From Pyronema omphalodes (Eukaryota; Ascomycota; Pezizomycetes; Pezizales; Pyronemataceae): DNA of 64,000 nucleotides. The stretch covers positions 62,001 to 126,000 of the forward strand of contig JAJJXM010000054.1 in NCBI GenBank assembly GCA_024516155.1. Direction: 5' to 3'. Under the pieces are notes generated by a model. It searched no databases, had not been told where the DNA came from, and saw nothing but the letters and a program-made list of their open reading frames with translations. How positions within the stretch are numbered: position 1 is the first letter of the stretch; the number at the start of each line of letters is the position of its first letter. Below, in pieces: positions 1,653 to 56,343 of this stretch. Position numbers and translations under genes: made by a program.

Positions 1653-3448
1653 CTAATTCTTCCACGGCAATGGGAAAGCACCAGTCCACTGTGCAACCTC
1701 CTTCCGCAGCTCCTCAATCTCAGGGTACTTCTCACCCTCCGCAAGGTGTCCCAAGAAATCCTTAACCTTCTTGACCTCAGGGTTCTTACTCGTGATCATT
1801 CTAGTAATTTCCACACCCCTGTCCAAAAAGTCTCCGACCTTCTTGAAGTCCTCCTCTCCAAGTCCTCTGGTAGTCATGGCAGGGGATCCAAGTCTCAATC
1901 CACCGGGCTTCAAGGCGGATTTGTCACCTGGAACGGTGTTCTTGTTTGTTACAATGTTTGCAATCTCAAGAACACGCTCTACACGTGCTCCGTCAATTCC
2001 CTTGTTCTTGAGGTCAACAAGGACCAAGTGGTTGTTGGTACCACCGGAGACAATGTTGTAATCCTTGGACTGGAGACGATCACTCAATGCCTTGGCGTTT
2101 GCCAAAACGGAGGTCTGGTATGCCTTGAACTCGGGGGTCTTGGCCTGGCCTAAGGCAACGGCCAATGCGGTGATGGTGTGGTTGTGAGGTCCTCCCTGGT
2201 GACCGGGGAAAACGGAAGCGTTGATGGGATCTTCGAGTTGGTACTGAATCTCTCTTCCTTTGCTGTCGACGCTGCGGACTCCCTTACGCATGAAAATCAT
2301 AGCACCACGGGGACCACGGAGGGACTTGTGGGTGGTAGTGGTGACGATATCAGCGTGCTCAAAGGGTCCGGGGATGACACCAGCTGCGATCATTCCGGAG
2401 AGATGGGCAATGTCAGCCATGAGGTAAGCTCCGACCTTGTCACAGATCTTCCTGAAGCGCTCGTAGTCGATGAAACGGGAGTAAGCGGTAGCTCCGGCAA
2501 CGATAATCTTGGGACGGTAGATCTCAGCCATGCTCTCAAGTGCGTCGTAGTCAATCAGTCCAGTAGCGGGATCGAGACGGTAGGGAAGAGTCTCGAAGTA
2601 CTCGGAGATCTTGGAGATTTTCTTGGTTGGTGTCTGGTAACCGTGGGACAAGTGACCTCCGTGAGGAAGGTCGAGACCCATGATTCTCTCGTGAGGACGG
2701 AGGAGTGCACCGTAGACGTAGAGGTTGGCGGGGGATCCGGACAAGGGCTGGACGTTGACGCCCCACTTCGTAGGGTCGAGACGGAAAGCCTCCAATGCGC
2801 GCTGACGGCAGAGACGCTCAACAGCATCGATGTGCTGGTTTCCTCCGTAGTAACGAGCGCCGGGGTAACCTTCGGAGTATTTGTTCTGCATGGGGGATCC
2901 GAGGGCGTCCATTACAGACTGGGAAGCGAAGTTCTCGGAGGCAATAAGGTTGATGCATTCTTTCTGACGGAGCTTCTCCTGGGGGGAGGTTAGCAGGTGT
3001 TACCAAAGCAATTAAATTCTTTCGGAAAGCGATCGAGGTTGTAGAGAAACATTATGTGTTGTAGAAGCCGATAGTAACCACACTGGTGGCACTCAATTCC
3101 CAAACTCATTACCGGCGACTCAATGCAGCTGGCGCCTTCACTCATCGCGGGGTAGCAAGCGGGGTGACTTATGAGTACGTACAGCTTCAAGAATTTTCGA
3201 AACCTCGGGGTCGGCGGCAGGAAGAGCATCGCTAAGAAGCTATCGCACTGTCAGTTCCACGGTTCATAGTCCCAATCCCCAATTCCCCAGCATCGGGCGT
3301 CGTCGGATCATTCCGTCGCAGAGGATCTACACACCTTCTCCTGCTGAGCCGAAAGGTTTCCGGCAGTTCTAACGACGGTAGTAGAGAAGGCCTTTGCCTG
3401 TGTAGCCTTGATCGCGGCGCGGTGCCGTAGGGTAGTGCGTGCCAACAT
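1653..3448 (-). CDS. SHM1: Serine hydroxymethyltransferase, mitochondrial form
   Basis: The enzyme interconverts serine plus tetrahydrofolate with glycine plus 5,10-methylene-tetrahydrofolate, using pyridoxal phosphate. Three exons (3335-3448, 3183-3239, 1653-2978) join in phase 0 to give 498 residues, a normal length for the mitochondrial isozyme. Exon 1 encodes an Arg/Ala/Thr-rich presequence without acidic residues (starts [20 protein letters not shown]), which indicates mitochondrial import. Family motifs follow in order: [40 protein letters not shown] and the PLP-lysine motif [13 protein letters not shown], with Lys at about residue 275. Introns begin GTGTGT and GTACGT and end TAG and CCCCCCAG. 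Start choice: first ATG upstream of the presequence. Long open frames on the opposite strand are shadows of this gene. The neighbouring genes are unrelated. Confidence 0.95.
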
Positions 3449-7602: not shown

Positions 7603-10332
7603 ATGGTGGGAGGCGGTCCTACGTCGCCTGAGGGTAGACCTCCTATGTGAGCCTCCCTCTTTCAACTCGTTCGTTTGCTCATGAGGAATCTCGTCGGTTC
7701 TGGGGATGTCGTCGCTACTCGGTGCTTCGTGATGCTCGGGGATCTCGTCATGTCGGGCTGCACTTTCTCGGACCGTCGAGATTCACGCCTTCGCCACATT
7801 GTCGCACACCACGGGCGTTGTTGAACCATGCTCAGTCTGTAGCTAACACACCCCAGATACAAAGCTGTCGGAGTCTCCCTCGCTGTCGCTTCAGGAGTAT
7901 TTATCGGTGTTTCGTTCGTGTTAAAAAAGAAGGGGCTGCTGGCGGCAAATTTAAAGGATGGAAAAGAAGCTGGAGAGGGTTATGGTTATCTACGGAATGT
8001 CTGGTGGTGGAGTGGAATGATCTTGAGTAGGTTATCCGAAGGGGTGAAGGGGGCCAAGTAGTCTTGGACGGCGATGCGTGCGGAGTCACCGAGGTCGTCA
8101 AGTACATCAGGGCTTGATTGAGGGCTTCGGGGCTTTGCCGTGCCGCTCGCCGGAAAGCTTAGGAACTCTGGGCACACTTCGTTTCAGCAACTGACTTTAC
8201 CAGTGATCTTGGGTGAAATATGCAACTTTATGGCATATGCTTTTGTGGAGGCCATTTTGGTCACACCTTTAGGAGCTCTCGTTCGTCCCCGTTCTATATC
8301 TCCTAACACCCCTCCATATTCACCATAGCTAACACCTGCACAGTCAGTAGTAATAACGGCCATCCTGTCTTCCATTTTCCTCAAAGAACGACTCAGCTTT
8401 ATCGGAAAGATCGGTTGTTTTATGTGCATAATCGGATCTATCGTTATCGTTCTTAATGCCCCGGCTCAGAGCTCTGTCGCTACTATTCAGGATATGCAAC
8501 GATTCATTTTAAGTCCGGGATTTTTGGTTTATGCGGGATTAGTCATTGTTGGATGTGTATCCATCATCATTTGGGTTGTGCCGAAATACGGTAACAAATC
8601 CATGATGCCGTATTTAATTGTTTGCTCCTTCATCGGAGGTCTCAGGTATGCCCGCTGCCGCCCATTCCAGCAGGGTGTTCTACCTGCTTTATACCTCCCA
8701 GGTCACTAACCACGCCACAGTGTTGTTGCAACCCAAGGTCTTGGAGCTGCTGTAGTAACCCAAATCTCGGGAGTTCCACAGTTCAACCAATGGTTCCTCT
8801 ACGTCTTGCTGGTCTTCGTAGTTGTCACCCTCTTGGTGGAAATCGTATACCTCAACAAAGCTCTCAACATCTTCAATGCCGCCTTAGTCACCCCCACCTA
8901 CTACGTCATCTTCACTTCTGCGACAATTGTAACCTCCGCCATATTGTTCCGAGGTTTCAAAGGATCTCCCTCCTCCATCGCCACCGTAGTCATGGGCTTT
9001 TTACAAATTTGCTCTGGAGTCGTATTACTGCAGTTATCAAAATCCTCCAAGAATGTCCCGGACACCGAGATTTTCCGAGGAGACCTAGACCAAATTCGAA
9101 CCGTGGCTGAGCAATCAGAGCCAGAGTCGGAACCCAAGGCTGACGCAATCCGTGGAACCGCCGCTATCATCCGTCGGTTGTCTGTTGCCCGTCAACAAGC
9201 CGAAGTCGACGAGGCCCTGAGAATTCGTCGGGAGCTGATGAGACCTGCAACCGCTGATGAACAACTCGAATGGGACGGAGTCCGTCGACGTGCCACCTGG
9301 AACTCAACCCGCCGGAATACCCTGAGTGGACATCATGCCCCACCACCAATCCACATGGCCCGCATCCCAGACGAAGAAGAAGCCGTTGTTCCAGAGCCGC
9401 AACCGGAAGTAGCTAGGGGCAGAAGACGTAGTATGTCCGTCGATGAAGCAATGCGAGTACGTATGCTTCAAGAGGGTGGAGGAGCCGAACCTCATTCTCC
9501 GGAAACCTTCCTAGAGCGTATGCGTGCACTATTTGGCGCCCGTACACAAGGCGGAAAGAGTTCAGTCGACCTTACCCACGCAAAGGAGGAACCAGCAACA
9601 GCCGCCGTAGTAGGGGGAGGAGACCACACCCGTGCCCTCGACTCACCGTCAACCCCCAACCGCCCTCGCTTCTACACTAGCGCCACCGCCGCCCCACCAC
9701 CCCTAAGCCAGCTCGGCATGCAACACTCCTCACAATCATCCCCACACGTCAACCACGTTCAATTCGAACGGCCCCGAAGCCACAGCCGGGGTTCAGAATA
9801 CAAAAGCATCCCCTCATCCCTTCCATACGACGAAAAATCCGACATCACAGCCGTTAGCGGTAGCCCTACCCCCGAAAAAGACCATGGAAGTACTAAAGGA
9901 AAATCCCCCGCCGATGGTCCCATGAGTCCCAAATCCCAAAAGGGAGGTGACGATACACATCTCCGTCCGGATTCTCGGGGTGGTGCAAGACGACAATTCT
10001 CCTTCACTTTCCTCCATCGTGGACATAATCGTAGTGAATCAGCCAGCAGTGCAATATCGACAACTGAATCACATCATAGCTCAGGAGTCGGCGCGAAGCT
10101 GCCGTGGAATAAAAGACCCGGTACCGATAGAGCTAGAACGGAGGAGGAAATGTTGGGGTTGGTGAAAGGTGATACTGCGAGTAGTGGGGAATCGGCCGAG
10201 TCGAGAGGGACGAGTAGAGGCGGTACTAGAAGTAGTTCCCCGGATCTTGCGGGGAGGGAAAAGGTTCCGGATATTAGAGTTGTGAGTGAGGATGAGGACG
10301 AGAGGAGGTGGAAGGAAACGGGGAAGAGGTAG
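7603..10332 (+). CDS. NIPA-type (DUF803) magnesium transporter family protein with long C-terminal tail
   Basis: Five exons (7603-7646, 7857-8026, 8204-8280, 8344-8645, 8721-10332) give 734 residues. The N-terminal ~305 residues are the membrane core of the NIPA family (Mg2+ transporters of plasma or endosomal membranes), with about nine hydrophobic segments. Family motifs seen are YKAVGVSLAVASGVFIG, FVLKKKGLL, MILGEICNFMAYAFVEAIL, VTPLGALSVV (across intron 3), SVVATQGLGAAVV (across intron 4) and NAALVTPTYYVIFT. Phase and family sequence fix each splice site; the second donor is GTAGGT and the third is an unusual GTTCGT. Residues ~306-734 form a hydrophilic, Ser/Arg/Glu-rich and probably disordered tail with many SPxx and RRxS sites, so phosphoregulation is possible (inference). 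The first ATG (context ACCATCATGG) is the start. Transport substrate is inferred from the family only. Confidence 0.9.
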
Positions 10333-11859: not shown

Positions 11860-13510
11860 AGCTATAATACACATGCAGTAATGCACTGTATATAGTTGCT
11901 ATCTACGGAATTGGTAAAACTCAACATGTCACGAAGTGGTTGTTGGATGGTAGACCAGGAAAGAGAGAGACAAGGGGAGAGGAATTCACAGCTGCCGCTG
12001 TGCGTAAGTCTGTTCCTGCAGCAGTACATATACAGGATGTAGCGCAACCCGAGAATCTGGCTATTATACTTGTCAATGAGATCATAGGGAAAACATACCT
12101 AAGATTAATAGAATGCAACTATATGTATGTACACGACAATCCCATGATTAATCCCACCATGTTTTCGATTTTCTTGCCGAAACCGCCCTTGTTGTCGAAT
12201 TTTGACTCCACTTCCATGGAACTTCGATTACCCCTCATCCTGTTTGGATTGTATTTGATCTCCCGCTTTATCCTGCCCGTTTTCTACGGTCTACCGCATA
12301 CTCCGGCTCTTCACAAATCTTTTCTCACAAGCATATGTTTATTACCTGTAATATATAAACACATTCTGGGATGTCACCGAAATGGTGAAGACGGGAAACG
12401 AATGCGAAGCTGGCCGAGTGGATCGAGAGTCGTTGAAATAGAGGATGTATCTCTGTTAGGCGCTGGAGGCCAGGAACTTACTTATTGAGATATTTTTATT
12501 ACATCCAAAGAGCAAATGAGATGATGGTATTGGTATCATTGTAGTGACAGGCATGGGAAGATTGTTCAGGAGGAGGCTTCGAGGAGGACTCAGAGACGGG
12601 ATGGAGAGTGAAGTGGGTGTAGGTGGTGTTTGCTGCAGGAGCTTGGAAGCGGTAGGCTTTGACGGAATTATGGTGGAATATGAAGGAGGAATAGGGTGGA
12701 AGATGAAGGGAGAGTACGGAAAATACTGAGACTAGACGAAGTACTAAAAGTATCGTCAATCCGTAACGCTTGAAGGCAGTGATGATTAATTTCTTGACAG
12801 TTTTAAATGTATGTGCAAGAGTGGCGTATAATTAACTTTGGATGATAGTAAATGAGGTTTTCCATTTCGATATGTTTCCCGCGATATCGTAAGCTGTATT
12901 ATCTCTTTTTGCTGCAGTGTCGTGAAAATCATCTATAGTTCACGGCCTTCTACGGTATGGATCCCGTTACAGTGCTACCACACAGGCCTGCGGCAGTGAG
13001 ACATAAACATAGTGTCAATGGGTGGAATGCAGCAGTCGGCTAATTAGATTACGGTAGCAGTCACAACAATTATATAATAACCCTTTTGAACCCAGTAAAT
13101 ATCTCAGCCTGATTATCCATCTACACTCCTCTCACGCACCGCGTTATTGCACTCTATCCCCACCGTACCATCGTTTTCCCTTCCAGCAATACACATCATG
13201 GACGCCAACAGCACGAACCGTATCGAAGCCAATGGCCTTCGGTTAACTCCCACTGCCATACTGCGTACACTCCCGGAAATGCAATACAGTATCCTGCTTC
13301 TACCCCTCTCTTCTCGCGGATACGGTTATCCCCTCAGACAAAAAAATGTCAAAACATACCGCTTACAGCACACCGGAGATGTCCAACATTTACCCAGAAC
13401 ACAACTTGACGGTGTTGAACACAACAGTGTTCTTATTACAAGACTTTCCTACATAACCCCAGATCCTATTTCTTATCAATCGCAACAGCGGAAACCCCTC
13501 CAATGCCAAA
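11860..13510. repeat. Block D, copy 1
   Basis: Matches about 18355-19980 in the same orientation with moderate divergence. Shared landmarks include GGAATTGGTAAAACT near the start and GGTATCATTGTAGTGACAGGCATGGG in the middle (12531-12556; 19018-19043), then CCCCACCGTACCATCGTTTT and ACACATCATGGACNCCAACAG near the end. Long frames in one copy are mostly broken in the other. One frame on the minus strand (about 12499-12720) is open in both copies with roughly three quarters of residues identical (both contain RFQAP.ANTTYTHFTLHP), but neither has a convincing ATG start. The block ends directly upstream of PAM2-array sequence in copy 1, and shortly before the third PAM2 gene in copy 2. Confidence 0.85.
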
Positions 13511-13564: not shown

Positions 13565-14600
13565 CTCCCACATTTCGCCATTTCAGCCCCGGATACCCAA
13601 TCGCGAGTTCTAGATTTCAACCACACAGTCAATTAAAGTACGTCCTTCATCACGTACCATCATCTGTTATTTCTTTTTCATCTAACAACCCGAAGTCTAG
13701 CAGCATGAACTCGATCACGTACGCCTCTCCACCTTTTCTATCCAATACCGCCACCCTTATCGCTAATCTTGGCAGTCACAGCACGCTTAATGTCCACGCG
13801 CCTATCTTTGTCGCGGCCGCGGCGGCCGGTCTCAGCGGCAGAAAACCGCTCAATCCCCGGGCAACTGTCTTCCTCCCGGCTGGCACTTCGAAGGGATATA
13901 TCAGAGGCCCAAAGCGCCTCAACGCCGAGGCTACCATCTTCACACCCACCGCCGCTATCGCAACCGAGCACGCCTCTACGTCGTTCTCGTCCGAGCTTGC
14001 GCACCAACTGTCTCCGACAGTGAAAGAATTTATGCCGCGCGTGCACCATCAAGGTTTGAATGATTATATCTCCAACCTACCACCTGCGCTGGGATTGACC
14101 GGCCCCCACCTTCTTATGCCTCCTAGTCCTGCCCCTCAGAAGTTCATCCGATTGACAACTTCTCTGCCTTTTACTTGTCCATTTTATCAACATGGAAACC
14201 TTTTCGTTTGTCTCTTTTTAAGTTTGTGCTGCACTTTTACCTCTCTTTTATGCGCGAGCCTTTTTGGGCTCGGTTAATGTAGGATTAAATGATAATAGAT
14301 TTGATTTGGATTGACGATAGTAAATGTTCATTGTACAAAAGTAGACTTCGCTGATAAAGTTGTGACTTCCCCCGCCGCTCCCTAATGTAGCCTACCGCTG
14401 CAGAATTCCCCGTCCCTTTCCACCTCCGCGCACCGCAACGCAAGTGTGGCTCCACAACTCTGATTCCAATTTATATTCTCATCTGAGAAGTGTTTATCGT
14501 CCGTTATTTTTCATTGTTTTATTTTTTTCATTTATAATCTTTTTGATCTTCAGGTATCCCACGTACTCTACTTGTTGTTACTGGGTGGTGAAATTGTCTG
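13565..14600. repeat. Block B, copy 1 (contains PAM2-array gene 1)
   Basis: Matches about 16815-17790 in direct orientation. Both begin with TTTCGCCATTTCAGCCCCGG, run through the PAM2-array coding sequence and 3' flank, and end near TGGTGAAATTGTCT / TGGTGAAGTTCTCT. Copy 1 is followed by a SINE candidate, copy 2 by unrelated sequence, and then both resume with block C. Confidence 0.88.
13705..14277 (+). CDS. PAM2-array protein 1 (four PAM2-like motifs, hydrophobic C terminus)
   Basis: From the ATG at 13705 the product is 190 residues; the frame is open upstream to 13147, so a 376-residue form is possible. The 13705 ATG aligns with an ATG in copy 2 that follows the same leader, so I prefer it. 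Four motifs follow the PAM2 spacing L3-x3-A7-x2-F10-x-P12: STLNVHAPIFVA (final Pro lost), KPLNPRATVFLP, KRLNAEATIFTP and HQLSPTVKEFMP (Ala replaced by Val). PAM2 peptides bind the MLLE domain of poly(A)-binding protein in known proteins such as Paip2, ataxin-2 and eRF3. A strongly hydrophobic end (NLFVCLFLSLCCTFTSLL, about residues 164-181) suggests a tail anchor. I infer a membrane-tethered PABP-binding protein; no enzyme domain is visible. Confidence 0.6.
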   Translation: MNSITYASPPFLSNTATLIANLGSHSTLNVHAPIFVAAAAAGLSGRKPLNPRATVFLPAGTSKGYIRGPKRLNAEATIFTPTAAIATEHASTSFSSELAHQLSPTVKEFMPRVHHQGLNDYISNLPPALGLTGPHLLMPPSPAPQKFIRLTTSLPFTCPFYQHGNLFVCLFLSLCCTFTSLLCASLFGLG

Positions 14601-14619
14601 CAACCGTAAGGTTATGACA

Positions 14620-14905
14620 GTCGTAATACTAATACTAATACTAATACTAATATTACATTTCCCAAATTTATTCCAACGCTTGTCTATGCCTATGGAGGTA
14701 TAGATCAGGTAAGCGGGGCCGCCCTTAACACATGTCAAGTACCCTTTCACCCCGGAGAGTGACTGCTTATCCTGAGCACCAGGTAAACCTCCCTTTGGAG
14801 GGCAAACCCAGGTTACCAAGGACATCTGTGGGAGCACCACGGGATTCGAACCCGTTGCTTTCTTGTGCAACGCAGGAAATATACCACTATACTACTGGGG
14901 CTGCC
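14620..14905 (-). mobile_element. tRNA-derived SINE candidate
   Basis: On the minus strand the head (14900 downward) has a Pol III A-box-like segment TAGTATAGTGG and a B-box/T-arm GGGTTCGAATCCCGT. The acceptor stem and anticodon arm do not fold into a functional tRNA. An unrelated body of about 170 bp follows, then a tail of ATTAGT hexamers (about 14625-14655). Head, body and simple-repeat tail is the standard SINE order. In the homologous region of block B copy 2 the element is absent: blocks B and C flank a different spacer there. I could not define a clear target-site duplication. Confidence 0.55.
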
Positions 14906-14909
14906 CCCT

Positions 14910-15600
14910 GTTCTGATATGTGTGTTTGTCTGTGCGCGATTCAAAAATGATGGACAAAATATAACTTCGGTATTTTTAAAACTTGGCGAGTTCTCTAGTT
15001 CGCGCATTCCGCTAACAGAACATCAAAAATTCACCGGTGACTCATGATAATAGGTACAGTCGACTCGGGTTATAAGGATACTATCTATAAGAATACCCAG
15101 TGTAGAAGGGTACCTGCCGCGGTCCCGACGGTTTTTGTATGGGAATTAAGGGTATCACAGTGTACTAGAATATCCTTATGAAAATGCCGAAAATTTGTAT
15201 GGTACCCTTATACAGTGGGGCAGCTGGTGATGTGGCTATAGTGCAATTTGTGTGGCTATGGTGCAATTTGTGTGGCGCTAGGACTCCACTTACCTCCGCA
15301 CTACCCCAGATCTGTGCATCTCGATCAATCACTCGTGCCAAGCCCCTCGGTCTTTAAGAATATACATCATATAAGGGTACACCCCTTCGGTCCCGGCGTA
15401 CCCTTATAGACCGAGTCGACTGTATGGATAAAGAGTTGGTGAGAATTATGATGCTTATCTTATCTGTCTTATCAATCAAATTCGCCCAACTCCAGAATAA
15501 TTGAGCTGTCCCGAATTCTTCATGGTGCATGACATGGGGTCATCTTAGCTCAGCATGTGATGCGATGCGGCATAGATGTTCAGAAGCCCTAACCTAGGCC
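14910..15600. repeat. Block C, copy 1, interrupted by a MITE
   Basis: 14910-15056 and 15423-15600 together match 18040-18330 and, in reverse complement, about 1210-1500. Shared words are TGTGTGTTTGT.TGTGCGCGATT, ATGATGGACAAAA, CGAGTTCTCT, AAAATTCACCGG and AGTTGGTGAGAAT. The continuity is broken only by the 366-bp element at 15057-15422. Confidence 0.85.
15057..15422. mobile_element. MITE, Tc1/mariner (pogo/Fot1-like) type, TA target
   Basis: The 366-bp element starts CAGTCGACTCGG and ends CCGAGTCGACTG. The terminal inverted repeats extend about 25 bp with few mismatches (ATAAGGATAC versus ATAAGGGTAC). It is flanked by TA on both sides, and paralogous block C copy 2 at about 18180 shows the uninterrupted site with a single TA (AATAGGTATCCATT). 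There is no coding capacity. Internally, ATAAG(G)GTACC words recur in both orientations. TA duplication plus CAGT ends are typical of Tc1/mariner-type non-autonomous elements. Confidence 0.85.
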
Positions 15601-16163
15601 CTACATCTCAGGCGCTAATCCCTGCTCGCAGCTTCATCGCAAACACCGCTCGCGTGGTGCAGGAATATAGTATCGATATCTATCAAGTCGAGTTATTACT
15701 ACTCCTTCTCAGTGGAATGGGAAGGGTGGAATAAGAACGGAATTGGGAAAAGAGGAAGGGGGAAACGGGGGAAAAAGGAGACAGGAAACAAAGGAAAGGG
15801 ATGCTTATCTTCACGGATTCGTTTGTTTCATACGTCACACCATACAAATATTGCCTTCTACGTTCGTATTTTAATCCTGGTATGAAAACTATCATGCGCG
15901 CTATGGCAAATATCGTTCCCTATATCACACGCGAAGTAACGGCATCGCTGAATTCTGTATATTAGACGCGACAAATCCAATGTCCTTTGTATTTTTTTGT
16001 CCTGAATTCAAGTAAACTCGATTTTTTATGTCGGTGAGATATGTTGAATATTCACCTTGTCATATCGTATCCGCTTTATCATAGACCTTCAATCTCGCAG
16101 AATACCGCTCCACCAAGTTCACCTTTTGATACTTCAACATCAAAACGAATACCAAACAAAAGA

Positions 16164-16397
16164 ATGCACCCTCCGTCTCTCATCATCCTCTATACACTGA
16201 CTTTACTTACCCTGCTCACAGCGCGCTACAGCTACATACCACCACTACTCCCTGATTATCATCTGATCCCGAAACAATTACCCACATCTCACGAACCTTG
16301 GAGCCCGCTTTTTATACCTGCAAAGTATTCTAAAGTCGCGGAGGAAGAGAGGGAGGAAAGAGCACAGGCAGTGAAGGGGTACAGCGTTGGGGTATAG
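16164..16397 (+). CDS. Putative small secreted protein, 77 aa (paralog 2)
   Basis: Same length and architecture as the ORF at 392-625. It has an N-terminal hydrophobic stretch (LIILYTLTLLTLLT), then PTSHEPW and a KGYSVGV end. A longer frame opens at 16041, but the ATG at 16164 aligns exactly with the start of paralog 1, so I place the start there. Of 77 positions about 54 are identical and there is no indel. It has no cysteine. The role is unknown; secretion is inferred from the N terminus. The antisense frame at 16289-16792 overlaps its C-terminal half. Confidence 0.5.
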   Translation: MHPPSLIILYTLTLLTLLTARYSYIPPLLPDYHLIPKQLPTSHEPWSPLFIPAKYSKVAEEEREERAQAVKGYSVGV

Positions 16398-16792
16398 CCG
16401 TGGTGAATGCCGATATTGTTGGAAAGTTCTTGTGGAGGGGAGTAGACCGTGAACCGGAGGCGAGAATGAAGGGGCGTTTGAAGAGTTGGGTAAATGGAAT
16501 CGTGAGACTCGAGAGTGGGTTCTGTAAGGTGGTTTTGAAGCGAATTGGGAGAGAGGACACGAAAAGAGTGGTAGGACTTTAGACGGTTGAAGGCTTATGG
16601 GAAGTGCTGACGAGTTAAGGGGACTAGCAGATCAAGCTGAGCCTCAATAACAGTACTAGCAATACCTTCTACCGCAACGGATAGGGCCTTCAGGTCGTCA
16701 AAGTATCTCTCGACCGGTTGACGATAGAGATGGACACACTTAGGGTTAATGTAGCGCACCGCACAATGGTGCTTAGCCCGTGACGGCGGCAT
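16289..16792 (-). pseudogene. Block A conserved frame, copy 2, with premature stop
   Basis: The minus-strand frame starts MPPSRAKHHCAVRYINPK, continues RQPVERYFDDLKALSVAVEG and meets a TAA after TRQHFP. Beyond that stop the same frame continues to the same terminal TGA as in copy 1, ending AGIKSGLQGS. Here the 5' part is intact and the middle carries a nonsense change; in copy 1 the reverse holds. I do not recognise the protein. Confidence 0.35.
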
Positions 16793-16814
16793 TCGTAAAT
16801 TATGACATAAAGCC

Positions 16815-17790
16815 TCCCCGTTTCGCCATTTCAGCCCCGGATACCCAATCGCGTTCTAGATTTCGACCACTGCATCAATCAAAGTACGTCCTTCATCACC
16901 TAACATCATCTATTATTTCTTTTTTAATCTAATAACCCGATGTCTACCAGCATGAACGGAATCAAGTACGTCTCTCCACCTTGTCTCTCCAATGCTGCCA
17001 CCCTTACCGCTAATCTCGGCAGTCACAGCACCCTTAATGCCCACGCGCCTATCTTCATCCCCGCCGCCACCGGAACAGCCCATCTCGGCGACCAAAAGCA
17101 GCTAAATCCTCTGGCTGCCATCTTCGCCCCAGCTGGCACTGTCAAGGGATATCCCCTAGGCCCAAAGCGCCTCGATCCCGAGGCCCCCATTTTCACGCCT
17201 ACCGCCGCAACCGATGCCGATCATGCCTCGGCGTCGTTCTCTTCCGCGCTGGCACACAAGCTGTCGCCGACAGCAAAAGTGTTCGTCCCGCGCCTACAAC
17301 ATCAAGATTCGACCGAATATATGCGCATCCGACCACCTGGGCTGGAATTCACCAGCCCCAACCTTACCCCCCCTAATCCTCCTCCTCCTCAGAATTGCAC
17401 CCTTTTAACCTCTTCCCTGCGTTTTACACGTTCATTTCATCAAGATGGACATTTATTCGTCTGTCTTTTGCTTTTTTTGTGCATGGGGCTTTTGGCCTCA
17501 GTCAATGTATAATTAAATACTAATGATAATGATTTGACTTGACGATAATGAATGTTGATTGTACGAAAGTAGACATCGCTGGTAATGCTTTGATTCCCCC
17601 CGCCGCTCCCTGATGTAGCCACTGCTTCAGAACTGCCCATTTCTTTCTACCTCCGAGCAACGTAACGCAAGTATAGCTCCACAACTCTGATTTGAATTTA
17701 TATTCTGCAATACAAAGAGTTTTTGTGGTCCGTCATTTTTTGATCTTTGGTTGCCTAAAGATACTCTGCTTGTTCTTGCCAGGTGGTGAA
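16815..17790. repeat. Block B, copy 2 (contains PAM2-array gene 2)
   Basis: Direct repeat of 13565-14600. Homology includes 250 bp downstream of the coding region (CTCCACAACTCTGATT, TTATATTCT, GTGGTGAA). After about 17790 it carries about 250 bp not found in copy 1 before block C resumes. Confidence 0.88.
16940..17512 (+). CDS. PAM2-array protein 2 (four PAM2-like motifs, hydrophobic C terminus)
   Basis: A single-exon ORF of 190 residues (or 186 from the second ATG). It has the best-preserved motif array of the family: STLNAHAPIFIP (residues 30-41), KQLNPLAAIFAP (53-64), KRLDPEAPIFTP (76-87) and HKLSPTAKVFVP (106-117). All keep Leu3, Ala7, Phe10 and Pro12. Motif spacing is about 23, 23 and 30 residues. 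A Pro-rich linker (about 134-150) leads to a hydrophobic end, LFVCLLLFLCMGLLASV (172-188), consistent with a C-terminal membrane anchor. The extreme C terminus is read in a different frame from protein 1 because of a small indel, yet both stay hydrophobic. Known PAM2 peptides bind PABP MLLE; binding here is inferred from the motif only. Confidence 0.68.
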   Translation: MSTSMNGIKYVSPPCLSNAATLTANLGSHSTLNAHAPIFIPAATGTAHLGDQKQLNPLAAIFAPAGTVKGYPLGPKRLDPEAPIFTPTAATDADHASASFSSALAHKLSPTAKVFVPRLQHQDSTEYMRIRPPGLEFTSPNLTPPNPPPPQNCTLLTSSLRFTRSFHQDGHLFVCLLLFLCMGLLASVNV

Positions 17791-18039
17791 GTTCTCTATA
17801 TTTCGAGCGCAAAGAAATGTGAGAGGAGTATTTTCGCGCGGTACTCCTGCCTCAATAGTCCTACGTCGCCATATACCACATGATCCAACTATGTCATGCG
17901 ATAGGTACCAATCTTCTACTAAAACACCCATCGACTAATCCTCCCCGAAGTGTTTCTGCAATTCTCCACCCACGTTCACAACCTCTATTTCAATATCCTT
18001 CCGGTCGACTCTCACATCTCTCATTTCGTCTTGGCTTTA

Positions 18040-18330
18040 TTACATGTGTGTTTGTCTATGCGCGATTGAACAATGATGGACAAAAAGTGTCATCGATGTT
18101 TCTACAACTCGGCGAGTTCTCTGCGACTTCGCGGCTTCCACAGACAGAACATCCAAAATTCACCGGCGAATCATAATAATAGGTATCCATTAAAAGTTGG
18201 TGAGAATATATGAAGCTTATCTTATCTGTCTTATCACTCAAATTCGCCTAACTCCAGAATAATCAAGCTTTCTCGAATTCTTTATGGTGCATGACACATT
18301 TTCATCTTAGCTCCGCATGTGATTCGTATA
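18040..18330. repeat. Block C, copy 2 (uninterrupted)
   Basis: Carries the same landmarks as copy 1 (TGTGTGTTTGTCTATGCGCG, ATGATGGACAAAA, CGGCGAGTTCTCT, TCCAAAATTCACCGGCGA, AAAGTTGGTGAGAATATATG) without the MITE. It therefore documents the pre-insertion state. Confidence 0.85.
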
Positions 18331-18354
18331 ATGCAGTTCTCAGCTACAAGAAAC

Positions 18355-19980
18355 CTGCAGCACTGAGCTCTATATACTTAGTATCTAGGGAATTGGTAAA
18401 ACTAAACATATCACGGAGTCGTTCTTGGATTGTAGACCAAGAAATGGAGAGACGAGGGGAGAGTAATTCACAGCTGCCGCAGTGCGAAAGTCTGTTCATG
18501 CAGCGGTACAGATACATAATTCAGCGCAACCCGAGAATATACCTATAACACCGATCAATGAGATCCGATGGAAAACATACCTAAGGTTGATAGAATGCAA
18601 CTAAACCCATGTACACGACAATCCAGTTTCACTATTTTCGATCTTTTGATTTTTCGATTTTCGAACCGAAAGTCGGTAATGTCGAATTCGGGGTCTATTT
18701 GCCTGGATGTTCAGCTACCCGCCATCTAGATTATTTGTATTTGATCACCCGCGTTTTCCTGCCCGTTTTCTACGGTATACCGGATACCCCGGCTTACCGC
18801 AAATATTTTCCCACAAGCCTGTCCTTGTTACACGTAATATGTAAACATATTGTGGAATGTGAGATAGGCGATGAAGACGGGAAATGAATGCGAATCTGGC
18901 TGGGCGGATCGAGAGTCGTTGTTGAAATAGAGGATGTATTTGTTGGGCGCTAGAGGCCGGGAACGAACTTGTTGAGATATGTTTATTACATTCATAGAGC
19001 AGATGAGATGATGGTATTGGTATCATTGTAGTGACAGGCATGGGGAAATTGTTCAGGAGAAGACTTCGGAAAGGGTTCTGAGGCGGGATGGAGAGTGAAG
19101 TGGGTGTAGGTGGTATTTGCTGTAGGAGCTTGGAAGCGGTCGGTGTTGACGGGATTATGGTGGAGTATGAAGCAGGAATAGGGTGGAAGATGAAGGGAGA
19201 GTACTGAAAATACTGACGCTGGACGAAGGACTCAAAAGCATTGTCAATTCGTAACGCTTGAAGACAATGATTATTATGTTCTTGACAGTTCTAAATTCAC
19301 GTGGAAGAGTGACGTGATAATGAACGTTGGATGATAATAGATTGAGTTTGGTTTTTCGGAATGTTTTCTGTGATGTCGTATCTTGTACTACCTTTATCCT
19401 ATCGAATGCCGTGAGAATACAGGCCTGCGGCAGTGAAACATGACAATAGCGTCAATGAGTGAAATGGGGCAGTCGGCTAATTAGATTAGGGTAGCAGTGA
19501 CAACGATTCTATAATAACCCTTTGAACCCAGTAAATGTCTCTGCCTGATCATCCATCTACACTCTTTTCACGCACCGGACAACGCTCTTTTTCTGAGCAT
19601 CCGTTGTTGCACTCTATCCCCACCGTACCATCGTTTTTCCATCCAGCAATACACATCATGGACACCAACAGCACGAACCTTATCGAAGCCAATAACCTCC
19701 GGTCAACTCCAATTCCACTACTGCGTACTCTCCCGGAAATGCAATACAATGTCCTGCTTCCACCCTTCTGGCCTCGCCGATACGGTTATCCCCTCAAACA
19801 AAAACAATGTCAAAATATATCGCTCACAGCACACCGGAGGTATCCCAAAAATACCCAGCACACGATGTGACGGTGTTTAACCCAACAGTGTTCTTATTAC
19901 AAGACTTTCCTCAATAACCCCAGATCCTATTTCTTATCAATCCCAACAGCGGATAAATCTCCAATGCCAAACGAACCTCG
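18355..19980. repeat. Block D, copy 2
   Basis: Direct repeat of 11860-13510. The 3' part has a short frame (19535-19870) equivalent to the leader of the copy 1 PAM2 ORF: both contain LHSIPTVPSF and EMQY, but this one is interrupted by indels. The block does not run into a PAM2 array directly; about 270 bp of other sequence separate it from gene 3. Confidence 0.85.
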
Positions 19981-20452
19981 TTCACTCCAGCCTTCGTCAC
20001 CGATACGGATTCCAAGATTTTCATCACTTGAAACTTTACTTACCTCATCAAATTTAAATACTTCTTCTTTCGTCCCCCTTTTCTTTCCACATTACCACTC
20101 AAAGCCTCGCATACAGAACTACGCGGATTCTGTAACCCCCAGTGTTAGTCTCAAATATACAACACCCCTCCCGAAACCACAGTACTATCAATTCATTCAA
20201 CCGCACTAACAGATGGGGTACTCCGCTCGTAAAAGTGTCTCAAAGCCGGTATACGATGGTGATGCATACAAATAGGGTTTACTATAGCGCACCGCAAACA
20301 CAACTGCGTAGCTTGTAATTACGGCAGTCGCAGATTTCTATAAAATGCCACGCCTTTGGCCATGTCTGTCCCAGATCTTCATTCATAATTATTGAACGAC
20401 GAAATCTCATCCAATAATCATATTCCTCTATCTTTACACCAGCTTCTTTATC

Positions 20453-21071
20453 ATGAATCGCGGAGGTGCGAGGCACCTGAATGTTCATGCGGCCGTCTTC
20501 ACCCCGGCCTCCGTCATCGAAACAAACGACTTCACGACACCTGCTATACCCGCCTCTCATGCGAAGCTGTCTCCGACAGCAGCAGCATTCGTACCTCATC
20601 TCCAGTATCGGGTGATGAGCGATCTAATCGACAAGCTGCCTCCCGCGCTGAAACCCCGCGACCCCGACATCTCGAGCCTCCTCGAACTTGAAGGTATGAG
20701 ATCTTGTTCTTGACTACATTCTAATAGTTATGGTTTGCTAATTTGTCAATCTAGTGCTGGGGACACTTCACGACGAAGACATCTACCTCCTCCGGGACGC
20801 CGGTAGCATCCTCTTTTGCGAGGGTGACCGTCCCCAGCAGTTCTATGGATTGGATGCTTGTCTGGTGCCGAATCATCGACAAGGGAGCCGATATACCCTC
20901 TGGACCAACGGCATCATGTTGAGCAAGGAACTCCTGCTGTCTCTCGGACGAGATACCATCTCCGGATCATATACTGAAGGTGGTAGGATGGGCAGCGCTG
21001 GCTGGTCTTTTCATGGGCGTGGGAATAACGTTGGTATTGCTTGTGTAGGAATTTGTGCACAGTATAGGTAG
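20453..21071 (+). CDS. PAM2-array protein 3 (two PAM2-like motifs, spliced)
   Basis: Exon 1 (20453-20693) joins exon 2 (20755-21071) across a 61-bp intron (GTATGA...CTAG, with a possible TTTGCTAATT branch region) to give 185 residues. Two motifs fit PAM2 spacing: RHLNVHAAVFTP near the N terminus and AKLSPTAAAFVP about 35 residues later. The following DKLPPALKPRDPD resembles the NLPPALGLTGP segment of protein 1. Exon 2 (YLLRDAGSILFCEGDRP, then KELLLSL) has no counterpart in the other two genes and I do not recognise it. Near the end a different frame encodes a good transmembrane segment (WAALAGLFMGVGITLVLLV, about 20989-21045, then TAG), so the last ~45 codons may be frameshifted relative to an ancestral tail-anchored form. 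Confidence 0.5.
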
Positions 21072-21153: not shown

Positions 21154-21651
21154 CTAAACCCATCTAATTCTAAACCGCCTCCATAAAAATGCCCCCAAAA
21201 AATCCCTACAAGCACTGTACCAGCGAACCGCAATATCAGCCATTCTCCAGATCGAAAATAGTGCAACCGCCTCTACAAATACGGAAACAAACGCCGTCCA
21301 CCATCCCGGCTCTTCATTTAGAACCAACTCAGATATAAATATCGCAATCAGGAAGCAGCTTAAAATTGACCAGAATGTTATGAATAAATACAGGAAGAGC
21401 ATCTTCTTCCTCATCTGTCTATTGTAGTCAATGTAGAGCGTACCACGAGTCCCCAGAAATACTCCGCTACCGAGGCAGCAGCTCAGGATAATAATGACGT
21501 AAAGATTGAAAGAGGCGCGGAAAATGCTGAGTGGACGTTCGGGGTCGAATGGAATGCGAGGAATTCTGGTTTCGGTTGAGTTGGTGAAGGTGGAGTTTTG
21601 GTCAGGTAGCATCGTTGCGTTTATTACGGAAGCCAGATTGGCAAATCTCAA
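21154..21651 (-). CDS. Small multi-pass membrane protein, paralog 1
   Basis: A 165-residue ORF with about four hydrophobic segments (starting at YVIIILSCCLGSGVFLG, then LFLYLFITFWSILSCFLIAI, then the FVSVFVEAVALF region) and a short N-terminal hydrophilic part with three N-linked glycosylation sequons. It shares FLxxxFxxFWxxLxxF, SEL/SEV, EExGxWTA and ExVALF with the ORF at 22894-23304, about 1.2 kb upstream on the same strand, so the two are diverged tandem duplicates. Conservation of the pair supports coding. The family is not recognised and I see no transporter or enzyme motif. Confidence 0.6.
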   Translation of the reverse strand: MRFANLASVINATMLPDQNSTFTNSTETRIPRIPFDPERPLSIFRASFNLYVIIILSCCLGSGVFLGTRGTLYIDYNRQMRKKMLFLYLFITFWSILSCFLIAIFISELVLNEEPGWWTAFVSVFVEAVALFSIWRMADIAVRWYSACRDFLGAFLWRRFRIRWV

Positions 21652-22893: not shown

Positions 22894-23304
22894 TCACAAC
22901 CGAGTGATCGATTGAACCCGCCAAGATCGACAAACACCAATCGCCAGATTCGTTAAAGCTGCGATGATAAACAACGCCACAAGTTCAGCACATACACACA
23001 ACACTGCAGTCCAGCAACCTAGCTCTTCTTTCATCATCACTTCCGAAAAGATCATTGCAAAAATGAATGACCCTAAAGATAGCCAGAAACTGACAAAAAC
23101 ATGTAGGAAGAGTGCCCGTGTCCATACCTGTCGAGTAAGGTCAAAGGAACCAAGGCGAGTGAATATAAAAACTGCAGTAACTACCATACAGAGTATGACG
23201 ACCATGATGTAGAAATAGGTGGGGGCATGGAAGAAGGCAAGAGAAAGGTCGGAGTAAGAACGATCGCGAGGGACCGTTAGTTGATTTGAATTGGTTGAAG
23301 TCAT
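22894..23304 (-). CDS. Small multi-pass membrane protein, paralog 2
   Basis: A 136-residue ORF with hydrophobic segments MVVILCMVVTAVFIFT, LFLHVFVSFWLSLGSFIFAM, TAVLCVCAELVALFIIA and a weaker C-terminal one. It aligns with the ORF at 21154-21651 through the central two segments and the EELGCWTA / EEPGWWTA loop. It lacks the longer N-terminal region of paralog 1. Function is unknown; localisation to a membrane is inferred. Confidence 0.6.
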   Translation of the reverse strand: MTSTNSNQLTVPRDRSYSDLSLAFFHAPTYFYIMVVILCMVVTAVFIFTRLGSFDLTRQVWTRALFLHVFVSFWLSLGSFIFAMIFSEVMMKEELGCWTAVLCVCAELVALFIIAALTNLAIGVCRSWRVQSITRL

Positions 23305-52966: not shown

Positions 52967-55488
52967 GTAGTATCACTGGATGTCTTATAAATGGTTTACC
53001 GAATTTGTCGTCCACTGACTTTGACGCGAGCATTCTAATCCCATACCTATTTCACCTCGGATATATTACTTGTCTCTAGTCAACTGAATTCAGTATACAG
53101 GTGTCTCTAAATTGCCTAAGAAAAGACTCGAGTAGCAACGGAAACGAATATTGTTTCAAAAAGCATTCTAAACATAATTCAGTCAAGAATTGAGCCGATA
53201 GCATAATACCTGGAATTATTTGGAATCCGTCTAGTTTGACTGCCCTTCGATGAATTGTTGGTTAGGCGAATTTGATTTCCGGCTCCATCAAACCTCCAAC
53301 TAGTTTACATCCAACCGAGCTCTCGGATGCTCCACGTGATAAGATCATGCCGCTACACCAACCGCTATTCCCAATGAGCGCGTTATGATTATCCTCGTCG
53401 GACTAATGCACCTCGAAGAGACCGTTATACAAGATCTAAATATGATTTTTCTAAGATGAAAGCTGTACATATCTCCGATATGTGGCGTCACGTTCATACT
53501 GGACGATAGTATCGTTTTAGCCGACATGGCCTTGCCGCCTTGCTTGCTAGCTATTATTCTACTGGAACTAGGCTAAATGCCGCTTCACAGGTATGGGTTC
53601 ATCGTCTTTTTATTTTATGTACTTATGGAATTCAATCTTGCCCATCCATTACTTTCGCGAGACGAATTTACTGGGCTACTACATAGCGTGCATTTATTAT
53701 GCAATTCTCATAATTAAACTCATTGTTCCAACTATCGGCTTGTGGTGATCCTACTGCTGTGTATAAAACTATAATAGAAATATCTGCTCTTACTTGAGGC
53801 CAGTGGCTTTGGAGCCTATGTTGCCCTCGCTTCGACCTTGACAACCGTTTTTCGCTATCAAAGGGCTTTATCCGAAGACTACGTCAAATGAAAGATAACG
53901 AACTTAAGGAGTGTAACGGATATTATGGTGCCTCGAAGGGTAGCATCCTTGAAAATTACCTGCCTGGTCGAAGTCAGTCTAAGGGCGGAGATGTACTTGC
54001 CATTTTGCAGGGATGAGGGTAATCGCAAGATTTGTCATAGGAAGTCGAAATAAATGTGTTGGGGTAATGGGAATAATGTGGATGATTGTTGTCATTTAGA
54101 GCATTGAATCGTAAGAAGTAACTCGCTTTCTGCTTGTGATGAATATCAAATATGTTAGACGTACTTAGTGCAAAGAATCCTTCAGAGGCTCATTGGCAGA
54201 TATATAAGAAGACAGCTGATGTGATTCGTTATGTAGTTATTTACTTCCAGATGGCTGCTGATGGCTGTCATCTTGATAAACCTCCGGGGAATCGGAAGAA
54301 TTCTGGAAAGAACCTGGAAGAAGTGTACTGATATGATGGTAAAATGGGTAATAGCAGCAGTAATGTATAAAATATGTAACTGGGATTCTGCTTGTAATGA
54401 ATATCAGATCCGTTATATACTTTTTCAGCACAAAGCACCCTAAATGAGATGACACACAGATGAGTAATAAGACGAGTGATGCAATTTGGTATCTAGTTGC
54501 CATAGCAAACTGCATCGATGGTCATTATAGAATTCGTGGTAACTTCTACGTAGAAGGTACCTGATGGTCTCTAGGAGGAAGGTATAATGGCATCAGAGTC
54601 TTTACTGGTCGATGAATCTGTGAATGGATGTACCAAACCGAACAGAAAACCACCTTCATATTAACAAGGCGAGATGAAATATCCTAAATCGCAGAATATG
54701 TACAACGTAACCAATATTTAGTCATGCAATCGTTACACAAATTTCACGCCAGTCGCTCATAGGCCGAAGATAGAACGCAGAGAAATTGTTCAATGAATAC
54801 AGCCTCACCACAGAGATGATCATACCTTGGTAGGAATAAACACAGAGCATTTTCACGGTTCTCATCTATGAAAAGAGGTGCCAGTTCGACCACCAACCCC
54901 CTGACGTATAGTATGTATTGCGTCACACACGAGAAATACAAGGAGATGGTTTCATGCAAAAACTTTCCACATTATGTGATATAGTAAGTGCTTTACGCGA
55001 ATGGTACTCAATTTTGTATTAGGAAAGCGAACAAAAGTCTACAGGTATAAGAAATACACAATGTATTATTCAGTACAAAAAACTTCCCCACAACAAATCA
55101 AACTACAGGTATAAAAGCATTTCATAACAGTAGTCATATGAGTTTTTATTTTTTGATTTAATTTGATTTGATTTTCTTGAACGTTCTCAACCTGCAGGTT
55201 CTGACGTATGCTACAGTCTAAATACATTTCGAGGCTCTAGCAGTTACCTTAGAGTCTCGCTGCGATCCGCCCCAGAACGTACTTCATTTCTTGGGCCTGT
55301 TGCCGCCTCTCTTCTTCCTGCTGGTTTTCAACTTTTCATTCTCGTCGTTACATTTTGGAGCCCTGTTTGCTCTTTTCCCACTCGGCACTCTCAACTTGAC
55401 ACTCTCACCCCGTCATTCGTAACCTGCCTCTGATTTCTTCTCCTCTCCTCTCCTCTTCTCTTCTACATGATTACATGAGTACATATCC
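52967..55488. other. Gene-poor region with degenerate repeats
   Basis: Around 53380-53540 a plus-strand frame reads YDYPRRTNAPRRDRYTRSKY but is soon interrupted. 53955-54560 is a degenerate repeat listed separately. The rest is AT-rich without supported genes. Confidence 0.35.
53955..54560. repeat. Degenerate repeat, copies 1 and 2
   Basis: Two adjacent diverged units (about 53955-54300 and 54330-54560) share CTGCTTGT(G/A)ATGAATATCA, GTGATNCNNTNTGTAGTT-like and AAGACNNGTGATG words. They also resemble 59490-59830. I cannot assign a transposon class. Confidence 0.55.
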
Positions 55489-56343
55489 TCAAAATGTCTC
55501 CTTCTCCGTATCCGGATCGTCATTCAGTAGGCTGGCAATAGCCATGCGGTTATCTCTGATGCATCGTGTTGGACTCTCGACAGGTCCATGGGTGGCGTAG
55601 ACTTGTTGTCCTCTCATGTGGGAATCCATTACCGCGTCTTTCTTCGCCGGCTCCATATCCGGCTCATCATCAAGTCGGTTGGTAATAGCCATGCGGATAT
55701 CCCTAATGTGTTGGCTTGGGGTATCGATAGGTCCATCGGGGGCAGAGAGTTGTTGACGTCTCATCTGAGGACTCATATGACCAACTGCAGCACCTAGCTG
55801 CGAACGGAAACCTTGTACTGCTCCACCAGTGATAAGGTGTAGCGAAACATGAGTCTCGTGAGCGTAGGAGATGAGCGGCTCCGAAGTTGGGTAGAGTGGC
55901 TGGCCGGTGGAAGTTGTTTTAAGAATGGGCGCAAGGTCCTCGTCGTAGTTTACCCAGGTGATATCGATTTCGAGCCAACTGTAGAGGGCGCAGTAAAGGT
56001 CGGCGACAGAAGCTGAAAGCGGCAGAGCTAGTGTTATGTCGTGGTGACAGGAAGCACCAGTTCTGATGGTGATTTTGAGCATATTATTCTCCGTGACCGA
56101 GGAGAGCTTTGCAGTGTCACCAAAAAGACGAAAGGAGACAATATCGTTGATGGCGATGTCCTCGAGCGGCTCGGATGTGGGGCGTAGTCGCCGATCAGTC
56201 ATCATTTTCATGAGGATGAGGCAGGGGTCTTCGTCGATGTCCAGCCAGTTGAAAAGGGTGGTATAGACATCGGCATAACTGGCGTGGAATGGGAGGGCCA
56301 GCTGAATCTTGTAGCCGGAGGCAAAGATTATGACTTTGATCAT
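55489..56343 (-). CDS. Protein with two ubiquitin-like-sized repeats and two C-terminal repeats, 284 aa
   Basis: A single-exon ORF built from internal duplications. Residues about 2-76 and 89-173 are two ~75-85 residue repeats that share LALPxxASxADxYxxLxxWLxID and RPTSEPL/YPTSEPL. Alternating hydrophobic strands suggest a beta-grasp (ubiquitin-like) fold, and repeat 2 ends VSLHLITGG, recalling a ubiquitin C-terminal strand. Residues about 194-230 and 243-279 form a second repeat pair (RGQQVxAxxGPxxxP, then IRDxRMAI, then NDDPD/DDEPD). The clean internal homology in one frame is strong evidence of coding. No characterised family is recognised; fold assignment is inference. Confidence 0.7.
   Translation of the reverse strand: MIKVIIFASGYKIQLALPFHASYADVYTTLFNWLDIDEDPCLILMKMMTDRRLRPTSEPLEDIAINDIVSFRLFGDTAKLSSVTENNMLKITIRTGASCHHDITLALPLSASVADLYCALYSWLEIDITWVNYDEDLAPILKTTSTGQPLYPTSEPLISYAHETHVSLHLITGGAVQGFRSQLGAAVGHMSPQMRRQQLSAPDGPIDTPSQHIRDIRMAITNRLDDEPDMEPAKKDAVMDSHMRGQQVYATHGPVESPTRCIRDNRMAIASLLNDDPDTEKETF

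Follow-up and report, generated by a model that had tools for sequence, protein, structure and literature searches.

Gene layout and PAM2 identity of the motifs

A cluster of duplicated small genes in Pyronema omphalodes raises the question of whether the repeated 12-residue motifs that they encode are PAM2 motifs, which dock on the MLLE domain of poly(A)-binding protein (PABP), and, if so, what proteins built almost entirely from such motifs could do. The DNA analyzed, hereafter the window, is a stretch of 64,000 nucleotides that contains three copies, about half of the family, all on the + strand. Copy 1 (coding sequence 13705–14277) encodes a hydrophobic C terminus and four PAM2-like motifs, STLNVHAPIFVA (13780–13815), KPLNPRATVFLP (13843–13878), KRLNAEATIFTP (13912–13947) and HQLSPTVKEFMP (14002–14037), with a single anchor replaced in motif 1 (Ala for Pro12) and in motif 4 (Val for Ala7). 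Copy 2 (16940–17512) also encodes a hydrophobic C terminus, together with four motifs that each retain all five anchors: STLNAHAPIFIP (17027–17062), KQLNPLAAIFAP (17096–17131), KRLDPEAPIFTP (17165–17200) and HKLSPTAKVFVP (17255–17290). Copy 3 has two motifs, RHLNVHAAVFTP (20471–20506) and AKLSPTAAAFVP (20561–20596), both in exon 1 (20453–20693), followed by an exon 2 (20755–21071) that holds the start of a domain common with a CCCH gene described below.

Every 12-mer quoted in a previous sequence-only reading of this DNA was found, and its motif counts for the three copies held. Its description of three related genes needs to be widened, since further members lie upstream of the window and on C231. 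Three further four-motif copies (mA, mB and mC) and one remnant lie just upstream of the window on the opposite strand, reaching to about C183:54,300, i.e. ~7.7 kb ahead of window position 1. Copy 3 is a gene of another type than copies 1 and 2, being a truncated version of a C219 gene with two exons, and the hydrophobic C terminus ascribed to all three is present in copies 1 and 2 but not in copy 3.

The PF07145 profile scored above its curated cut-off of 20 bits in six of the nine sequences scanned, namely mA, mB, mC and the three window copies (41.4 bits over three stretches for copy 2, 27.5 bits for copy 1, and 23.4 bits over 20453–20710 for copy 3, scanned as exon 1 only). The remaining three were a two-motif exon from C219 (16.8 bits; 12.7 bits for the protein spliced to 278 residues) and two exon-2 pieces devoid of motif. 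A back-translated anchor pattern had six exact matches in the window, all inside copies 1–3, versus an average of 0.25 and at most 3 in 100 shuffles, which rejects a chance origin of the motifs. Across the five four-motif copies (copies 1 and 2, mA, mB and mC), 97 of the 100 anchors are kept if Asn, Ser or Asp is accepted at position 4, the three losses being in copy 1 and mB; Leu3 and Phe10 are present in all 20 motifs of these paralogues. Position 9, a Glu in the consensus xxLNxxAxEFxP given in a passage of PMC9249222, is Glu in only two of the 20.

Over the whole genome the profile gave no match at E ≤ 0.001, and likewise none in 14 control genomes, because a motif of 18 positions hardly attains such values; at E ≤ 10, 11 places were found, five of them in this array. 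The best single match of the genome lies outside the array, on C212. No solved structure matched copy 2 at E ≤ 10. None of nine pattern matches in viral contigs and none of 108 in prokaryote genomes was confirmed as a relative of copy 2, as expected of a fungal gene.

The start codon of copies 1 and 2 is uncertain, as a candidate GT...CAG intron could end just before the ATG. In copy 1, the possible intron (13638–13703, + strand; GTACGT...CTAACAAC...CAG), recognized from the sequence and the five-copy alignment, would end just before ATG 13705. In copy 2, the corresponding stretch (16884–16950, + strand; GTACGT...CTAATAAC...CAG), read from splice signals only, would end just before ATG 16952; with a real intron, copy 2 would start at 16952, otherwise at 16940. 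The alignment of the five copies shows complete signals in only three of them (copies 1 and 2 and mA); mC lacks the acceptor AG, and mB both donor and acceptor. The frame of copy 1 stays open upstream as far as 13147.

Selection on the PAM2 anchors

Selection was analyzed in the five four-motif copies only, with the mB stop codon handled as missing; because their motifs are fewer or decayed, the C219 paralogue, copy 3, the remnant at C183:54k and the copy on C231 did not enter these counts. The dN/dS ratio was 0.06 at the 20 anchor codons, versus 0.72 at the other motif codons and 0.81 in the linkers. The conservation of the anchors was equalled by only one of 20,000 random codon sets and by none of 20,000 residue-matched sets. 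Minimum-change counts gave 17 silent and 4 replacement changes at the anchors, compared to 43.5 and 88.5, respectively, for the remaining codons as far as motif 4 (p = 5.6e-5). As judged from these codon comparisons, selection falls on the PAM2 anchors, and the conservation of the anchors in the face of accumulating silent changes means that selection at the protein level was needed during at least part of the divergence. Gene conversion was rejected as the cause of this conservation, since silent changes abound at the anchors, and a non-coding repeat was rejected on the grounds that selection is anchor-specific. Indel counts were set aside as a coding test owing to paired one-base alignment artefacts and to some flank pairs that barely overlap. 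Together, profile and anchor-specific purifying selection support the PAM2 identity of the motifs.

The same data bear on the idea that the genes are decaying by-products of segmental duplication, i.e. pseudogenes or near-pseudogenes with no present function. Sequence comparison identifies them as segmentally duplicated paralogues encoding small proteins (about 160–190 residues) with no recognized domain besides PAM2, and part of the family is in decay: the remnant at C183:54k has lost anchors, and the additional copy on C231 is degenerate, with two stops and lost anchors. The internal TGA of mB, an overall dN/dS of 0.53, the high linker value and the fact that much DNA outside the PAM2 frames of the duplicated units is also 70–90% identical all fit this idea. 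Nevertheless, it sits poorly with the anchor codons of the five four-motif copies, whose conservation greatly exceeds chance even as silent changes accumulate, and we consider it unlikely.

Kinship to a tristetraprolin-like CCCH gene

The two-motif paralogue on C219 lies near a gene encoding 810 residues (exons joined by inference), with one PAM2-like motif and a tristetraprolin-like tandem CCCH finger. The motif, in which Pro12 is Ser, goes unreported by the Pfam profile. The finger region matches the tristetraprolin structure 1m9o (78 bits); counting by eye puts 18 residues between its two CCCH fingers. No solved structure was matched at E ≤ 1 by a 228-residue piece from the middle of the protein.

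The two-motif paralogue is 61% identical to the CCCH gene in their common domain (56% over a longer stretch), and is related to the five four-motif copies at the protein level. Copy 3 exon 1 is 92.5% identical to it over 80 residues, while exon 2 departs from it after about 20960. Its upstream DNA is 73% identical to that of copy 2, mA and mC, and 70% to that of the remnant; no such kinship was reported for copy 1 or mB among the blastn matches at E ≤ 1e-5, all of which were considered except those resembling dispersed repeats (e.g. window 55144–55460 and 1579–1835). In addition, CCCH-related stretches lie on the + strand 5′ of copy 1 (12524–13384) and of copy 3 (19011–19801), each with three blastn segments against C219 (69–75% and 69–74% identity, respectively); both are related to the 5′ flank of the CCCH gene and to its N-terminal region, coding in the case of the stretch 5′ of copy 1. 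Fourth segments occur at 12154–12298 and 18649–18781.

At E ≤ 0.01, neither the array pieces nor the 5.5 kb surrounding the two-motif paralogue matched the zinc-finger segment, and in a whole-genome search with the 810-residue protein this segment was matched only at its own gene. The two-motif relative has the middle domain of the CCCH gene and lacks the zinc finger; the four-motif copies on C183 have the docking segment and extra motifs ~23 residues apart, without zinc finger or middle domain. With kinship established at both the DNA and the protein level, the four- and two-motif genes seem to have arisen from a CCCH gene of the tristetraprolin type, the direction of descent presumably being from the CCCH gene to the arrays.

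Comparison with known PAM2 and CCCH proteins

Unkempt carries CCCH fingers, and the family and structure names in our profile and structure matches agree with this. The C219 CCCH gene has in it a precedent for its architecture, a PAM2-like motif combined with CCCH fingers. The PAM2-like motif of Unkempt is required for PABPC binding according to a passage of PMC11009413; unlike the arrays, Unkempt has a single motif, kept with its RNA-binding domain. The C219 gene resembles the tristetraprolin/TIS11 type in its two CCCH fingers, which match 1m9o, whereas neither the array copies nor the two-motif paralogue has zinc fingers. Contact between human TTP and PABPC1 depends on phosphorylation, and TTP competes with poly(A) (PMC12350847); the word PAM2 is absent from the main text of that paper.

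Multi-PAM2 proteins are already known. Upa2 of Ustilago maydis, a scaffold of endosomal mRNA transport, has four PAM2 motifs that interact with the Pab1 MLLE (passages of PMC9249222), and is similar to the five four-motif copies in motif number. It differs from them as a dimerizing scaffold with a C-terminal GWW motif crucial for endosomal binding (same passages), a motif absent from the five copies; the array proteins, in turn, measure ~160–190 residues, come from a cluster of paralogues and are kin to a CCCH gene. A partial search of the literature found no prior description of the origin and architecture of these arrays.

The hydrophobic tail

The sequence-only reading had suggested that the products could be tethered to membranes, an idea that the data support weakly. 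All five four-motif copies have a downstream in-frame hydrophobic stretch (best 19-residue Kyte–Doolittle means 2.26–2.98), which in mB comes only past the stop; in copy 2, it spans 17450–17509 (+ strand), in T-rich DNA, with a mean of 2.57. The C termini read LFGLG, ASVNV, ASVNV, ASINV (past the stop) and ALVSV. A tail anchor would insert into a membrane, where the four PAM2 motifs would hold polyadenylated mRNPs. Frame 0 is the most hydrophobic of the three (four copies compared) and the dN/dS of the tail is 0.33, as such an anchor would lead one to expect. However, the tail DNA is 47–48% T (four copies measured), so that hydrophobic residues come cheaply, its minimum changes (20.5 silent, 22.5 replacement) do not set it apart from the linkers (p = 0.12), and mB has its TGA ahead of the tail; moreover, the C219 paralogue likewise has a hydrophobic T-rich end, which may be no more than the translation of sequence resembling a 3′ UTR. 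Membrane tethering is possible, but we regard membrane-tethered PABP collectors as doubtful.

Candidate partner and possible function

A genome search for MLLE domains scored two candidates and found one at E ≤ 1, in the PABP gene, where the MLLE piece aligns closely with human PABPC1. If expressed, the array proteins would present four (or two) PAM2 peptides to this MLLE; one multivalent protein could occupy several MLLE domains along a poly(A) tail and would compete with other PAM2 clients as a decoy or collector. Since they are without a recognized RNA-binding domain, the products likely act as multivalent PABP ligands, and on balance we favor the view that they bind MLLE multivalently, probably serving as decoys or collectors of PABP. 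Two published results count against it: certain human PAM2 peptides, such as that of PAN3, failed to bind PABPC1 although they contain the essential residues (a passage of PMC5118804), and mutating all four PAM2 motifs of Upa2 abolished MLLE binding and left transport undisturbed (a passage of PMC9249222).

Instead of PABP, the motifs might bind a different protein with an MLLE domain, or a partner that has none. The MLLE of U. maydis Rrm4, a protein other than PABP, binds variant PAM2L sequences (a passage of PMC9249222), and an MLLE domain that has diverged strongly could go undetected by the profile. This seems quite improbable, given that the sole MLLE at E ≤ 1 (two candidates scored) sits in PABP and that it is the canonical PAM2 profile that picks up the motifs.

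Coming back to multivalent PABP ligands, their kinship suggests a more specific scenario, which we put forward tentatively: a CCCH regulator may have lost its RNA-binding end and multiplied its docking motif, giving rise to multivalent PABP sponges that would compete with their ancestor and with other PAM2 clients for polyadenylated mRNA. If true, a post-transcriptional regulator would have spawned decoys by domain loss and motif amplification. Provided that they bind PABP, the array proteins would be natural minimal multi-PAM2 ligands, nearly isolated motifs on a string, comparable to artificially tethered PAM2 peptides: in passages of PMC5118804, isolated PAM2 peptides of several proteins, once tethered, recruit PABPC1 and suppress NMD, those of PAN3 and TOB1 working poorly. 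Those laboratory peptides are artificial and RNA-tethered, whereas the arrays have no detected RNA-binding part. Redundancy has been a problem in studies of mutants affecting single PAM2 proteins (a passage of PMC9249222); the arrays, if they are what we propose, would offer a direct test of how MLLE occupancy and valency affect polyadenylated mRNAs.

A cluster of PAM2-array genes

The three PAM2-array genes proposed by the sequence-only reading are present in the window as open frames on the forward strand (copy 1, 13705–14277; copy 2, 16940–17512; copy 3, 20453–21071, with a join at 20693/20755), and every one of the PAM2 motifs it had quoted was found in the sequence. All three copies score above the 20-bit cut-off of the Pfam PAM2 profile (PF07145), and the pattern of the five motif anchors (positions 3, 4, 7, 10 and 12) occurs six times in the window, versus a mean of 0.25 over 100 shuffles.

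The window corresponds to C183:62001–126000 of a genome that probably belongs to a fungus, to judge by its size (60.8 Mb, in 232 contigs), the short introns predicted in a CCCH zinc-finger gene and its PABP. A search of this genome with copy 2 gave at least ten matches at at least nine places, both counts being lower bounds. Besides the window copies, these are (i) three four-motif copies on the opposite strand of the same contig (C183), upstream of the window, namely mA (C183:55449–55961, matched twice), mB (C183:58253–58834, with one TGA ahead of the hydrophobic C-terminal tail) and mC (C183:61281–61835); (ii) a decayed remnant near C183:54.3 kb, also upstream of the window; (iii) a degenerate copy with two stops on contig C231; and (iv) a gene with two PAM2 motifs on contig C219. 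Self-comparison of C183 revealed duplicated units in direct and inverted order over about 54–82 kb, flanking both sides of seemingly ordinary genes, the frames at window positions 1653–2912, presumably related to serine hydroxymethyltransferase, and 8806–10332. When the five four-motif copies (copies 1 and 2, mA, mB, mC) are aligned, a possible intron appears immediately 5' of the start codon, its signals being whole only in copy 1, copy 2 and mA, so that translation of copy 2 may start at 16940 or 16952.

The duplicated units also repeat a second, small frame (16164–16394, forward strand, 77 residues, MHPPSLIILYTLTLL...) with a hydrophobic N-terminus, whose kin at window 562–395 (reverse strand) and at 2749–2510 of locus L012 (reverse strand) show 68–70% identity, one of them with a stop. 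Adjoining copy 3 lie two small, membrane-like, mutually related frames (21157–21651 and 22897–23304, both reverse strand; about 34% identity). Elsewhere in the window, the translation of frame 55489–56343 (reverse strand, 284 residues) appears, by eye, to contain two similar halves.

Selection on the motif anchors

Among the five four-motif copies, all codons taken together give a dN/dS of 0.53, with 0.81 in the linkers, 0.72 at the seven non-anchor motif positions, 0.63 past motif 4, 0.33 in the tail and 0.06 at the five anchors. In 20,000 random draws of 20 columns, one had replacements as few as those at the anchors; in 20,000 residue-matched draws, none did. When changes are counted as a tree-free minimum, the anchors show 17 silent and 4 replacement ones, and the remaining codons up to motif 4 show 43.5 and 88.5, respectively (p=5.6e-5). 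These estimates of selection come from a small set of related copies, and the events counted are not independent. Leu3 and Phe10 are retained in all 20 motifs, and anchors overall in 97 of 100 instances; six motif relics, located by eye in the C183:54k and C231 copies, retain 20 of 30. Gene conversion between copies is ruled out as the source of this conservation because silent change at the anchors is high (pS 0.47).

Kinship with a CCCH zinc-finger gene

The two-motif gene on C219 would encode 278 residues if spliced as we inferred. About 6 kb downstream starts a tristetraprolin-like gene (C219:149329–151929; L021 4329–6929), whose exons we joined at GT...AG sites (introns of 61, 55 and 55 bases) into a product of 810 residues comprising a PAM2-like motif, a domain in common with the two-motif gene and a tandem CCCH finger. 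Its single motif, ARLSPTAPEFIS, has Ser in place of Pro12 and was not reported by Pfam PAM2 at E≤1. The finger matches zf-CCCH in two stretches (54.6 bits), its top solved structures being 9y10 (90.6 bits, named only as a C3H1-type protein) and tristetraprolin 1m9o (78 bits). The shared domain is 61% identical between the two genes over about 124 residues (56% over a longer stretch); this middle region of the CCCH gene (~125 residues) had no Pfam or solved-structure match at E≤1. On the 3' side of the two-motif gene, L014 3546–3858 is 87% identical to window 55144–55460, probably a dispersed repeat.

The two-motif gene matches the array copies around motifs 3–4 (33–46% identity; E 2e-8 to 0.003 in a search limited to six DNA pieces), and in copy 1 the match extends into a common LPPAL segment. 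Its upstream DNA is 73% identical to that of copy 2, mA and mC and 70% to that of the remnant; the same comparison gave no such match for copy 1 and mB. Copy 3, 92.5% identical to it in the exon 1 protein (88% in DNA), is a truncated copy of this gene type. The array also contains stretches related to the 5' flank and N-terminal region of the CCCH gene; that the zinc finger was lost rather than gained is the simpler reading.

A candidate receptor and a possible role

Genome-wide, the MLLE profile had a single match at E≤1, in a gene that reads like PABP; this 57-residue piece aligns with the MLLE of human PABPC1, with KITGMLLE intact. Further PAM2-like sites (E≤10) include a frame with FSLNPLAQEFRA on contig C200 and one on contig C212 with RSLNPTAAEFVP, the top single PAM2 match in the genome (C212:167951–167992, locus L023), which lies close to the beginning of its open frame.

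As outlined in the respective reports, isolated PAM2 peptides can recruit PABPC1, but some fail (PMC5118804), and the RNA-binding protein Unkempt carries a PAM2-like motif (PMC11009413). PAM2 motifs may be redundant, since transport is described as undisturbed by loss of the four motifs of Upa2 (PMC9249222). Among the literature matches listed (titles and abstract openings, with partial coverage), there was no clustered family of small multi-PAM2 proteins, nor any CCCH-derived PAM2 proteins.

The hydrophobic stretch at the C-terminus might serve as a tail anchor, a reading limited by its T-rich DNA and non-significant constraint. The array products are most likely multivalent PABP ligands, whose four motifs, 23 to 30 residues apart, could bridge several PABPs along one poly(A) tail. 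Products of this kind, lacking any recognised RNA-binding part, would be competitors of other PAM2 clients.
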